From an uncultured Alphaproteobacteria bacterium (GTDB taxonomy: Bacteria; Pseudomonadota; Alphaproteobacteria; RF32; CAG-239): DNA of 44,391 nucleotides. Under the pieces are notes generated by a model. It was not told where the DNA came from and did no database searches. It was given only the letters and a program-made list of their open reading frames with translations. Below are positions 1-44,391 of the stretch, in pieces (positions within the stretch are counted from its first letter, which is position 1; the number at the start of each line of letters is the position of its first letter). Made by a program: the position numbers and the translations under genes. The stretch spans positions 1 to 44,391 of the forward strand of contig CALYBC010000002.1 in assembly GCA_944393725.1 (NCBI GenBank). The letters are read 5' to 3'.

Positions 1-809
1 AATCCTTGCGAAGTAGCTCGCACATTACTTTTTTCGTAAATATAATTTTTTCCGCTAAAAGTTAAGGTACCATTATAAATTCCTAATGTACCGCTATTAC
101 TTTCCATCATTAAATCAAAATTATGAATAGATATTTCAGCGGTTGAAGTTGCTGTTAAAACATTCAATCCTCGTCCGACCGCCGACACCGCTTTAACCGA
201 TAAATCACTAATTTGATTATTACCATTAAGTCTTATGGCATAATTGCTAGTAATATTATTTGCCGCCATGTCAAAACTAAGCTGTGAGTATTTATCTTTA
301 TCGGGTTGAGCAACGCCGAATTTACCAACTCCGACCAAATTTTGCCCGTCTTTTAGAGTAAAGCTTTCTTCACATTCGATATTGCCGTAAATAACAATAT
401 CGCCGGTCAAATTAGATGTAACCGCCGCTTTTAGCTCTTGCCAGTTTGATACTACTGCGGCGACGCCGTCTTGGGCGACAAACCATTCTTTTTCCGGTAC
501 TGCAACCGTCATCGCCTCGTTAACTACCGCGGTTGCTTGTTCCAAAAATTCCGCTCCCGAGGTCAGTCCTTGGGTGGCGGCTTCAATGGTCTGAATCCCT
601 TGCTCCATGGCATCAAGCAACGCGGTTAAATCAGCCGCACGATTGGTCAGAGAGCGAGCTTGGTAATAGCTGGACGCATTGTCTATCGCCGAGTTCATTT
701 TCTTTCCCGTCGCCAATATTAACTGGGTTTTATCCATTTGTTTGGAGATGTTTCGCAAACTTAGCAAATTGCTCCGCATGGAGGCGTTTAAGGTGATGTG
801 GTTATTCAT
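1..809 (-). CDS. Flagellin-family protein with beta-helix-like insert (3' end beyond left edge)
   Basis: The reading frame is open from an ATG at 809 to the left edge, giving 269 codons with no stop, so the C-terminal part is missing. A strong GGAGGTGAG ribosome site lies just upstream. Residues 1 to about 100 look like the helical D0/D1 region of alphaproteobacterial flagellins, including LATGKKMNSAIDN near residue 32 and a Leu/Ala heptad pattern. From about residue 115 the character changes to short beta strands and turns rich in Asn, Gly, Ile and Val (for example GDIVIYGNIECEESFTLKDG and NLVGVGKFG). That pattern is typical of right-handed parallel beta-helix, pectate-lyase-like folds. Flagellin variable domains are displayed on the filament surface, so this would be a surface-exposed beta-helix. 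Whether a C-terminal D1/D0 half follows cannot be seen. Flagellin call fairly sure; beta-helix is inference. Confidence 0.8.
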   Translation of the reverse strand, partial: MNNHITLNASMRSNLLSLRNISKQMDKTQLILATGKKMNSAIDNASSYYQARSLTNRAADLTALLDAMEQGIQTIEAATQGLTSGAEFLEQATAVVNEAMTVAVPEKEWFVAQDGVAAVVSNWQELKAAVTSNLTGDIVIYGNIECEESFTLKDGQNLVGVGKFGVAQPDKDKYSQLSFDMAANNITSNYAIRLNGNNQISDLSVKAVSAVGRGLNVLTATSTAEISIHNFDLMMESNSGTLGIYNGTLTFSGKNYIYEKSNVRATSQG

Positions 810-958
810 CTCTCACCTCCCGCCCATCGGCGATAAATTATATCATTTCTGCTAAGGCGATTCGTATATGTTTTAGACGCAACAAAACTCTCTGCCAAAC
901 GGCAGAAAGCCAACAATTCCTCATTAAAGAGGCTATGTCTAAGTTCTTTACTCAACAT
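806..958 (-). CDS. Candidate 50-aa protein translationally coupled to the flagellin
   Basis: A 50-codon frame starts at ATG 956-958 (MLSKELRHSL...) and ends at a TGA that overlaps the flagellin ATG in an ATGA arrangement, the classic layout for translational coupling. An AAGGA element lies 10 bases before its ATG. The predicted peptide is basic and mostly helical, ending YRRWAGGER, with no signal peptide or membrane segment. The last codons overlap the flagellin ribosome site, which by itself encodes GGER. I do not recognise it. It could be a leader peptide or a small flagellin partner. It could also be a chance frame in a structured leader, since it contains half of a 10-bp inverted repeat. 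Confidence 0.4.
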   Translation of the reverse strand: MLSKELRHSLFNEELLAFCRLAESFVASKTYTNRLSRNDIIYRRWAGGER

Positions 959-970
959 TCTTGTTGCGTC
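876..970 (-). repeat. 10-bp inverted repeat enclosing hairpins in the flagellin leader
   Basis: GACGCAACAA at 876-885 and TTGTTGCGTC at 961-970 are perfect inverted copies 75 bases apart. Between them are two smaller hairpins: CTCTCTGCC with GGCAGAAAG around 888-909, and CCTC with GAGG around 918-931. In the leftward transcript the right arm overlaps the AAGGA ribosome site of the 50-codon ORF, so pairing could mask translation. This is a structural observation only; no known RNA family is recognised. Confidence 0.5.
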
Positions 971-993
971 CTTAAATCTTGGTTTTCTTAAGA

Positions 994-1028
994 AAAATCC
1001 GTACGGACAGCTACTCCGTACGGATTTT
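994..1028. terminator. Strong bidirectional hairpin terminator
   Basis: A perfect 14-bp stem, AAAATCCGTACGGA (994-1007) and its complement (1015-1028), closes a 7-base loop. It has an A-run on the left and T-rich sequence on the right. It lies downstream of the leftward gene ending at 1069 and should separate that gene from the flagellin unit. Confidence 0.85.
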
Positions 1029-1068
1029 ATTTTACCACATTTTTTCTTAAAAAGAAATTAATTTTTAT

Positions 1069-1653
1069 TTAATTTACCTTGCGTTGCAAATCCTCAATTC
1101 GCGGTAAAACTGAGTTTTCGATAATAAAGCTTATCGCCTTTTCTACCGTGCGATCGGTATGCTTTACGGCATTCCACACCGCTGAGCCGTCATCGCCTTT
1201 GGATGCTATTTTTTGATATAACATCGCCATCTCAGAAAGCGAATCTACAATCTCGGCTAAAAATGCCGGCATTTTTAGGTTTTCTTCACCACCAAAAAAG
1301 CCTTCGACATAGCCTTGTTCAACCATGTCATAGCGGGCTTGGCAGTACTCCTTCAAATCTTTGGTTTTGAGGGTGGGAAGTTTTACCTTGTTTTGTTTGA
1401 CACTATCAAATATTTCATCCCAAAGCCCCATAAAAAACTTAAAAAACAAATCGGCCTCGGCCTTGGTTTCAAGCCTTGGAGCTCTGCCCTCAGCCCAAAA
1501 TGACGAAATCACATCGGTCGGTCTTAAACTCAAATTGGGTGAGCATATCGCTCCGGCAAAACGCATTTTTACAACTTCCAACGGGGTTTGGCAGGAGTAA
1601 TGTTCTAACATTTTTGTAAAGCTTGCGTCTCCAATATATTTGTTTGCTTGCAT
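1069..1653 (-). CDS. Hypothetical protein, 194 aa, soluble and helical
   Basis: The protein starts MQANKYIGDASF and reads as a compact, mostly alpha-helical cytoplasmic protein without signal peptide or membrane segment. Visible features are CQTPLEVVKMRFAGAICSPN near residues 21-40, then FWAEGRAPRLETKAEADLFF, and a C-terminal helix ending in LPRIEDLQRKVN. I do not recognise the family. It is a single leftward gene ended by the strong hairpin at 994-1028. It faces away from the divergent lipoprotein gene at 1722, so the roughly 70 bases between them must hold both promoters. Codon use looks like that of the housekeeping genes nearby, so a native gene is likely. Confidence 0.75.
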   Translation of the reverse strand: MQANKYIGDASFTKMLEHYSCQTPLEVVKMRFAGAICSPNLSLRPTDVISSFWAEGRAPRLETKAEADLFFKFFMGLWDEIFDSVKQNKVKLPTLKTKDLKEYCQARYDMVEQGYVEGFFGGEENLKMPAFLAEIVDSLSEMAMLYQKIASKGDDGSAVWNAVKHTDRTVEKAISFIIENSVLPRIEDLQRKVN

Positions 1654-17475: not shown

Positions 17476-18309
17476 CTACTTAGCGGCTTTCTTCTTGGCT
17501 GCAGGTTTCTTAGTTGCTGCCTTTTTGGCCGTGGTCTTCTTTGCCGGAGATTTCTTGGCAGTTGTCTTCTTGGAAGTAGCGGCTTTTTTTGCGGTTGTTT
17601 TTTTAACGGTCTTTTTCTCTACAGATTTCTTCGCCGCTTTTTTAGCCGGAGCTTTTTTAACAGCTGTTTTTTTGGCTGTTTTCTTTGCTGAAGTTTTCTT
17701 TGCCGCCGCTTTTTTGACCGCTGCCTTCTTGGGAGCTTTTTTGACCTTTTCTTTCTTTACTTTCTCTTTCTTTACCTTCTCTTTAACCGGTTTGGGCTGT
17801 GAGGCAACCAAAGCTTTCTCAATATCTGATTCGGAACATAAACCGATGGTTACCGGATTCTTCGGACGCAAAGAAGACATTTCTTTGTGCGAACCATCAC
17901 GAATAGAAGATATCGTCCCCTTGGTCGTGCCAATGAGCTTGCAAATAAGAGTATCTTTAATTGTGGGATAATTTTTAACAATCCATAAAATTGCATTGGG
18001 TTTATCCTGTCTTTGCGACGGAGATAAAACCTTTTTGCTCTTTTGATTGCGGAGCTTTACATTGCGTTCCATAGCACAGGCTTCCAAATTTGCCTTTTTA
18101 TCGGCTTCGCAACGGTGTATTTCTTCCCATGTCAACTGACCATTGTCAACGGGGGATAATCCTCTGATGTTGCCCGATACATCACCGTCTGCCATGGCTT
18201 GAATCTCAAGTTCGTGTATTTCGCAAAAAACTGCTATCTGACGAAATGTCAAAGTTGTATTCTCAACCAACCATACGGCCGTTGCTTTGGGCATTAATGG
18301 TGCTGTCAT
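17476..18309 (-). CDS. trcR: TrcR-family (DUF1013) cell-cycle regulator with histone-H1-like tail
   Basis: Residues 1 to about 170 match the alphaproteobacterial DUF1013/TrcR family: MTAPLMPKATAVWLVENT at the start, TFRQIAVFCEIHELEIQAMADG, then RQDKPNAILWIVKNYP, LIGTTKGTISSIRD and NPVTIGLCSESD. The two repeated helix-turn-helix-like halves suggest DNA binding. TrcR proteins are described as transcriptional regulators of the cell cycle. Residues 172-277 are almost only Lys, Ala, Thr, Ser, Val and Pro in AKK/KKTA repeats, like bacterial H1-like proteins (AlgP, HctB). This tail is not a feature I know from the family. It would bind DNA nonspecifically. The start ATG and a terminator are clear. 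Confidence 0.9.
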   Translation of the reverse strand: MTAPLMPKATAVWLVENTTLTFRQIAVFCEIHELEIQAMADGDVSGNIRGLSPVDNGQLTWEEIHRCEADKKANLEACAMERNVKLRNQKSKKVLSPSQRQDKPNAILWIVKNYPTIKDTLICKLIGTTKGTISSIRDGSHKEMSSLRPKNPVTIGLCSESDIEKALVASQPKPVKEKVKKEKVKKEKVKKAPKKAAVKKAAAKKTSAKKTAKKTAVKKAPAKKAAKKSVEKKTVKKTTAKKAATSKKTTAKKSPAKKTTAKKAATKKPAAKKKAAK

Positions 18310-43592: not shown

Positions 43593-44391
43593 CTAGAACA
43601 AGCTCAATACTGATTGGGCTGATTGCGAAGCCAAGGACAGTGAATTAATAGCCAATTGCTGTCTGGTTTGCAATGCCAAGTAGTTGGCTGATTCTTCGTT
43701 CATATCGGCAAGTACCAAGTTATCCGAACCGGTCTCTAATACATCAATCAATGCCTCGGTAAAGTTTTGACGAGTTTCAATGATTGAGTAGTTGTTACCT
43801 AATTCAGTAGCGTATGAACGCAAATAATCGGTAGCCTTGGCTATCTCGGTGATGGTAGCATCAATCGAGGCAGCATAGCTTTCTACTGCAACCTTATGCT
43901 CAACCATTGTTCCACCCGGGGTATCATTGCGATCTGCCGTACCATCACCTTGCAATTCATAGTATACATCACCACTTTTAACAAAGGTTGTGGTACCACC
44001 ATCATTAGTATAGATTACTGATCCTTCAGCTACAGTACCTTCGTCATCGGCCCCAGCATCATCTTTTAGCTCAATTGCTGTTGCTGTAGTAGCTGTAGTA
44101 GTTTGACCATTTGGAACTTTTGCCCAGCCATCAGCACCGCTGATGTTCATCTCGGTAATAATATCATCACCTTGAATATCAAATTTGTTTGAGCGCGACT
44201 CGTTGAAGGTTACGGTTAACTTACCGCCTTTTAACAAGTTAATACCTTGATATGAAGCATCGGCTACCAATTTGGTAATTTCGCCTTGGATCTTTGCAAA
44301 CTGCTCTTGGTAACTTTTAATCTGATCACCATAGGTTTTTGAAGCAGGATCCAATGCATAAGCCGACTCGGCAACTGATTTCAACTGCTCA
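43593..44391 (-). CDS. Flagellin (5' end beyond right edge)
   Basis: The frame enters at the right edge (EQLKSVAESAYALDP...) and runs to the stop at 43593, so only the C-terminal 265 codons are seen. A TTG at 44384 is not a real start. First come D1 helices ending SYQGINLLKGG. Next is a variable domain of about 110 residues rich in Asp, Gly, Thr and Glu (IELKDDAGADDEGTVAEGSV). Last is the conserved C-terminal D1/D0 region ending NSLSLASQSAQSVLSLF, the standard alphaproteobacterial flagellin end. This is a conventional filament subunit by comparison with the left-edge paralogue. Confidence 0.94.
   Translation of the reverse strand, partial: EQLKSVAESAYALDPASKTYGDQIKSYQEQFAKIQGEITKLVADASYQGINLLKGGKLTVTFNESRSNKFDIQGDDIITEMNISGADGWAKVPNGQTTTATTATAIELKDDAGADDEGTVAEGSVIYTNDGGTTTFVKSGDVYYELQGDGTADRNDTPGGTMVEHKVAVESYAASIDATITEIAKATDYLRSYATELGNNYSIIETRQNFTEALIDVLETGSDNLVLADMNEESANYLALQTRQQLAINSLSLASQSAQSVLSLF

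Follow-up and report, generated by a model that had tools for sequence, protein, structure and literature searches.

A family of flagellins with a predicted adhesin-like beta-helix inserted between ND1a and ND1b, and a structured leader RNA upstream of part of its genes, in an uncultured alphaproteobacterium

The window, a stretch of 44,391 nucleotides, begins within a gene whose product joins a flagellin N-terminus to a predicted right-handed beta-helix. The architecture of flagellin N-half, beta-helix and flagellin C-half is fully supported by sequence comparison and structure prediction of complete copies. On balance, these proteins are read as variable adhesive flagellins of the filament, whose gene copies would replace one another or move between loci, probably under leader-RNA control. 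A flagellin D0/D1 core, split between ND1a and ND1b by an SRRP-like right-handed beta-helix of approximately 350 residues, would leave the cell via the flagellar export apparatus and co-assemble with ordinary flagellins, placing the beta-helix on the filament surface, where it may bind a glycan or mucus-type ligand. Dispersed genes with a constant core and variable outer coils would provide a set of variants differing in binding or antigenicity, gene copies would replace one another or move between loci, and the structured 5' leader RNA would probably control expression. Roles in motility or immune evasion that involve no specific binding would be compatible with these data as well. If filaments do display beta-helices, adhesion and motility would be united in one organelle with a built-in set of variants.

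The window is the entire contig C2 of the draft genome G000 (33 contigs, 1.435 Mb, 97% complete), so that the truncation of the gene at its left end is an assembly break; flhA, fliF, fliG, fliN, flgE and flgD are all present within the window. The frame stays open up to the window's first bases, and its ATG start stands in a good ribosome-binding context (GGAGGTGAGAG-ATG). The following features were assigned around the gene and at the opposite end of the window:

3..809, minus strand: beta-helix flagellin gene, 269 codons, 3' half missing, truncated by the contig end
498..809, minus strand: codons 1–104, flagellin N-terminal D0 and D1 helix ND1a, from the Flagellin_N match and modelled helices
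3..497, minus strand: codons 105–269, N-cap and first coils of the predicted right-handed beta-helix, running past the contig, from Pfam, the model and the homolog L068
816..820, minus strand: Shine-Dalgarno sequence GGAGG, read directly from the sequence and the same in six G000 paralogs
1069..1653, minus strand: upstream gene, 194 aa, unknown, its stop codon abutting the 5' module; syntenic in genome G064
43593..44390, minus strand: C-terminal part of an ordinary flagellin without beta-helix, its N-part lying on contig C16; comparison gene

In Pfam scans, Flagellin_N (PF00669) matched residues 8–100 of the window protein (E 7e-10), bearing out the flagellin D0/D1 N-terminus recognised in the earlier note, and was found in 13 of 13 members of set A2. 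Pectate_lyase_5 (PF20585), described in Pfam as a 'putative pectate lyase-like adhesive domain', matched residues 119–242 (E 1.7e-4) at 22.2 bits, just under the curated gathering cut-off of 24.3 bits, and the insert is therefore termed a PL5-like fold and not a PF20585 member. Relative to Pectate_lyase_5 proteins, the profile match is weak, lies at the N-half of the beta-helix and occurs in the context of a flagellin; PF20585 did pass the cut-off in a fragment of a related flagellin from genome G095 and in non-flagellin secreted-type proteins of G000.

Two complete paralogs, on contigs C5 (622 aa) and C17 (617 aa) of G000, consist of Flagellin_N, insert and Flagellin_C, and L068 (620 aa), a homolog encoded in the genome of an uncultured alphaproteobacterium, shares 88% identity with the window protein along the length of the latter. 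The C-terminal flagellin half envisaged in the earlier note is present, as Flagellin_C, in C5, C17 and L068, and the window copy itself ends before that region. Judged by sequence, the family is real and complete in relatives, and a C-half of the window copy's own is to be expected. Contig C28 holds a third G000 copy with one TAA in its N-half, and contig-end partial copies were found as N-halves on C19 and C23 and as C-halves on C10 and C24; the latter two orphans have no overlap with the window N-half. Internal TAA codons occur in the copies on C28 (L011) and C24 (L033), several copies in genome G050 (L143, L150–L152, L156) contain stops or internal deletions, and the deletions in some broken copies fuse the start to the C-terminal part. 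Such copies suggest birth-and-death turnover, or else assembly error. Assembly breaks lie in or beside the repeat family on C5, C13, C14, C15, C16, C19, C21, C23, C26 and C28 as well as at the left end of the window.

AlphaFold2 was run on the window's own 269 residues, together with 12 relatives, and gave helices at 9–43 and 54–101 and strands at 116–259, the latter mostly at pLDDT 84–96, which agrees with the switch to a beta-helix placed near residue 115 in the earlier note. The model of L068 has a continuous beta-helix at approximately 107–440 (pLDDT mostly 80–97); the flagellin helices of the AlphaFold2 models are poorly determined (pLDDT approximately 30–60). Using Foldseek, the flagellin part was matched by Caulobacter FljK/L/M/N filaments and the insert by pectin-lyase-like proteins, all with weak E-values. 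A structural aligner applied to the L068 model returned the Lactobacillus reuteri SRRP structure 5ny0 as top match (Z 23.7, 2.9 Å, 265 residues), a second SRRP structure, 5nxk, at Z 21.2, and alginate epimerases/lyases, polygalacturonases and phage tailspikes below these at Z 18–20, a search in which low rank or absence of a structural family proves nothing. The full-length structure called for earlier, here that of the homolog L068, is predicted to contain a beta-helix and matches solved pectin-lyase-like folds; a sequence search with the insert profile found no solved structure.

The position of the insert was defined against ordinary flagellins. Codons 1–104 of the window gene align with residues 2–98 of the canonical flagellin on C16, and the insert takes the place of residues 99–114 in C16b, an ordinary flagellin encoded by the same genome; these residues form the ND1a–ND1b connection. 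The hypervariable region of C16b (approximately 172–264) is reduced to a counterpart of approximately 16 residues in the beta-helix flagellin; the beta-helix flagellin thus leaves the customary outer-domain position almost unoccupied and carries its extra domain elsewhere. In FljK, where an outer domain is missing, the aligned residues are 2–79 and 114–270, flanking the insert on both sides. In the FliC topology, ND1a and CD1 should come together with their ends at D1's outer edge, and the ND1a–ND1b insertion site would accordingly lie there. The flagellin at the right edge (43593–44390 with its continuation on C16) carries no beta-helix, as had been noted from the window alone.

Flagellins tolerate foreign surface domains. 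The nearest parallel, flagellinolysin (FlaMP), is likewise a flagellin with a foreign functional surface domain and a multi-species family (PMC5595980). There, a protease occupies the central hypervariable region, whereas here a beta-helix is predicted at ND1a–ND1b, no catalytic set was found and, unlike flagellinolysin, many paralogs occur per genome. The ten commonest of the 61 hypervariable-region domains listed in PMC5595980 do not include Pectate_lyase_5, and Pfam scans of the present flagellins detected no peptidase family. In the open-access papers searched, no report was found of a beta-helix or pectate-lyase adhesin-type flagellin, of an ND1a–ND1b insertion, or of a comparable number of copies in genomes this small.

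The fold is shared by polygalacturonases, alginate epimerases/lyases and tailspikes (Z 18–20) and enzymatic flagellins exist (PMC5595980), so the beta-helix could make an enzymatic filament, acting as a polysaccharide lyase or hydrolase in a carbohydrate-active parallel of flagellinolysin. Against this, the GH28 four-motif set, searched in order and spacing, was found in 0 of 32 non-redundant family members (the window copy itself being truncated), the RxK motif in none of the 32, and no conserved acidic/basic cluster was found among them. Conserved beta-helix positions are mostly hydrophobic, Gly or cap residues, with a few conserved polar residues near the N-cap (E126, Q157, D203 and N232 in C17 numbering; frequencies 0.84–0.94), and the Pfam match is to a putative adhesive domain. 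The check covered GH28-type motifs, the RxK motif and conserved clusters; on this evidence an enzymatic filament is considered very unlikely. Adhesion is favoured over catalysis because, among solved structures, an adhesin comes closest, and because the family conserves no catalytic set of the polygalacturonase type. The earlier suggestion of an adhesive or enzymatic filament is thereby narrowed towards the adhesive side; from the models and motif searches, the insert is likelier adhesive than catalytic.

The binding region of SRRP (5ny0, 5nxk), a protein of a gut bacterium, is a right-handed beta-solenoid, as predicted here, but SRRP is a cell-wall adhesin exported via accessory Sec, whereas the present domain is part of a flagellin, and the aligned identity is 14–16%. 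SRRP attaches to epithelial cells, to mucins and to DNA (PMC6973325); it also binds pectic acids and has been described in connection with biofilm (PMC9210967). A second comparison is offered by enterotoxigenic E. coli, whose flagella display the exoprotein adhesin EtpA to receptors of the host (reviewed in PMC8306008). EtpA binds the flagella in trans, while here the adhesin-like domain lies within the flagellin chain.

Values of dN/dS were 0.04–0.14 in core and cap and 0.22–0.45 in the outer coils, so that the genes are coding and selected as proteins, with the coils changing faster. Strong conservation and purifying selection mark the two terminal regions, down to the final residues LSLASQSA.S.L.LF. 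These observations bear on the possibility that the proteins are secreted flagellin homologs outside the filament, which pass through the flagellar channel and end up in the matrix. Release of this kind has been reported for FlaE and FlaF, two flagellin-homologous proteins of Vibrio that bind exopolysaccharides (PMC6692518), the gene number lies far above what a filament needs, and an insertion inside D1 could hinder polymerisation. The conservation of both termini speaks against this reading, however. The expected meeting of the ND1a and CD1 ends at the outer end of D1 also weighs against release, which is judged unlikely.

G000 holds at least six, and probably approximately 13, dispersed beta-helix flagellin genes. 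When the insert was searched against 153 genomes of the order, 74 gave matches; part of these reflect ordinary flagellins, as the query includes some flagellin D1 sequence. Flagellin_N matches numbered 8 in G000, 6 in G048, 5 in G042, 12 in G064, 11 in G128, 8 in G035, 9 in G022, 11 in G044, 13 in G061, 17 in G055, 20 in G045 and 44 in G028, the last within a 1.6-Mb draft; the counts pool ordinary and long forms, include contig-end fragments, and come from genomes picked either for their quality or because their matches were many. Where the assembly is good, ordinary flagellins (281–436 aa) are clearly apart from the long forms (approximately 500–800 aa), and the long ones are scattered. Within a 385-genome sample of the class, insert-spanning matches were obtained in G000 only. 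Longer matches in other alphaproteobacterial orders (residues 1–240, approximately 31% identity) were set aside, as seven of the eight, on reading, resemble ordinary long hypervariable regions, one of them Gly-rich. A flagellin-like protein of another family (L200, genome G387) has a very Gly-rich insert.

Given the extreme variability of the coils and the many paralogs beside ordinary flagellins, which suggest no conserved contact surface, a mechanical role, in which outer beta-helices touch and stiffen the filament for viscous surroundings, appears highly improbable, even if outer-domain interactions do so in other species (PMC8931119, PMC10256154).

Approximately 260 bp before the start codon are near-identical in all six G000 genes with a visible start, and the two ordinary flagellins of G000 are without this 5' module. 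Its parts in the window are:

810..1067, minus strand: whole 5' module, comprising hairpin, leader RNA and ribosome-binding site, beginning where the upstream gene ends
874..971 (model match 869–976), minus strand: structured leader RNA, a 12-bp closing helix P1 around three hairpins
998..1024, minus strand: hairpin followed by a T-run, TCCGTACGGAGTAGCTGTCCGTACGGA-TTTTT; base changes in C17 preserve the stem

The hairpin with T-run at 998..1024 is terminator-like and perhaps belongs to the upstream gene. The leader, approximately 100 nt long, is predicted to form a multibranched RNA (fold z −6.7). A covariance model gave 58 leader matches in 13 of the 153 genomes of the order and, against the 385 genomes of the class, none in any genome but G000 and none in other orders. 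Among 49 aligned matches, 96.8% of cells pair and two-sided changes occur in 18 of 29 pairs, versus 8.0 for shuffled and no more than 8 for slid controls, in an alignment which was fitted to the model and so favours the structure; an independent alignment of 12 leader sequences likewise has two-sided changes. In Rfam, the leader matched no family at gathering score, with sub-threshold matches only. Flagellin starts, some of broken genes, follow at 9–202 nt in 39 of the 42 matches with at least 200 nt downstream and at approximately 410 nt in one, and two are without any. A strong match in genome G039 (L160, 69 bits) has no flagellin nearby. Most beta-helix flagellins of other genomes are without the motif, which therefore marks a subset. 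An invertible promoter, considered for the inverted repeat of the leader, was dropped, as complete copies all have one orientation and covary in the manner of RNA; a consensus search upstream gave no sigma-28-type site.

On these comparisons the leader is a candidate for a previously undescribed cis-regulatory RNA. An alphaproteobacterial flagellin mRNA leader as control point is known from the FlbT system of Caulobacter and Brucella, FlbT binding flagellin 5'UTRs in Caulobacter (PMC4347634), and by analogy FlbT may be regarded as one candidate partner. Unlike in descriptions of that system, the leader here precedes beta-helix flagellins and not the two ordinary flagellins, and its regulation is putative. 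On contig C16, a flbT gene (L014, 1656–2051, minus strand) is the immediate upstream neighbour of the ordinary flagellins.

G000 contains 13 leader copies, 12 of which lie less than 1 kb from a contig end. Set against six visible starts, they indicate up to seven further genes in assembly gaps, and for families of this kind the counts obtained from metagenome-assembled genomes are probably too low. At most sites checked, the 5' module begins a few bases from the stop codon of the upstream gene. Between G000 and G064, six sites are syntenic; the upstream flank of the window locus is 92% identical to that of locus G064_d over 1,756 nt. The window flagellin is 53% identical to its positional counterpart G064_d and 88% identical to G064_a, a gene from another locus. 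The paralog at the window locus thus differs from the one at the corresponding position in G064, which indicates variant replacement or movement. At the G064_a locus, G000 has a terminator-like hairpin and no beta-helix flagellin gene, and from this sequence comparison gain and loss cannot be told apart. Leaders are 90–98% identical within G000 and 75–85% between species, and the near-identity within the genome suggests that copies have been homogenised or have spread recently; as the simplest guess, replacement or movement may proceed by recombination between near-identical flanks.

The same pattern could arise from antigenic or phage-evasion variation, in which the outer coils have no specific ligand and vary mainly to evade immune systems or flagellotropic phages: variable coils stand between conserved modules, leaders are near-identical within the genome, and variants were replaced or moved between loci. 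The coil dN/dS stays below 1, however, and the closest fold is an adhesin; taken as the sole explanation it is distinctly unlikely, and it is not exclusive of the adhesin reading. Taken to its full extent, the adhesin reading would describe a flagellar adhesin variation system, with dozens of dispersed genes in a reduced genome, a new D1 insertion point, copies that replace each other or move among fixed sites located where genes end, and a previously undescribed leader RNA controlling part of the family, a proposal that is offered tentatively and is more doubtful than not.

Further observations were made beside the family. Non-flagellin proteins on contigs C7, C8 and C25 (L025/L036, L024/L035, L023/L034) have an N-terminal signal-like stretch and carry Pectate_lyase_5 or AIDA-like repeats; they are possible autotransporter-type adhesins and a possible source of the flagellin beta-helix. 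In G095, the fragment L067 combines Pectate_lyase_5 above cut-off with a weak Lcl_C match and lies next to a frame for a flagellin C-terminus; together they may represent a flagellin that bears two domains of adhesin type. Contig C24 (L033) bears foreign-looking genes beside its flagellin C-half, e.g. a lipoprotein-like 809-aa protein, and is possibly a binning mixture. Within the window, 17476–18309 (minus strand) encodes the cell-cycle regulator TrcR with a long Lys/Ala-rich, histone-H1-like tail.
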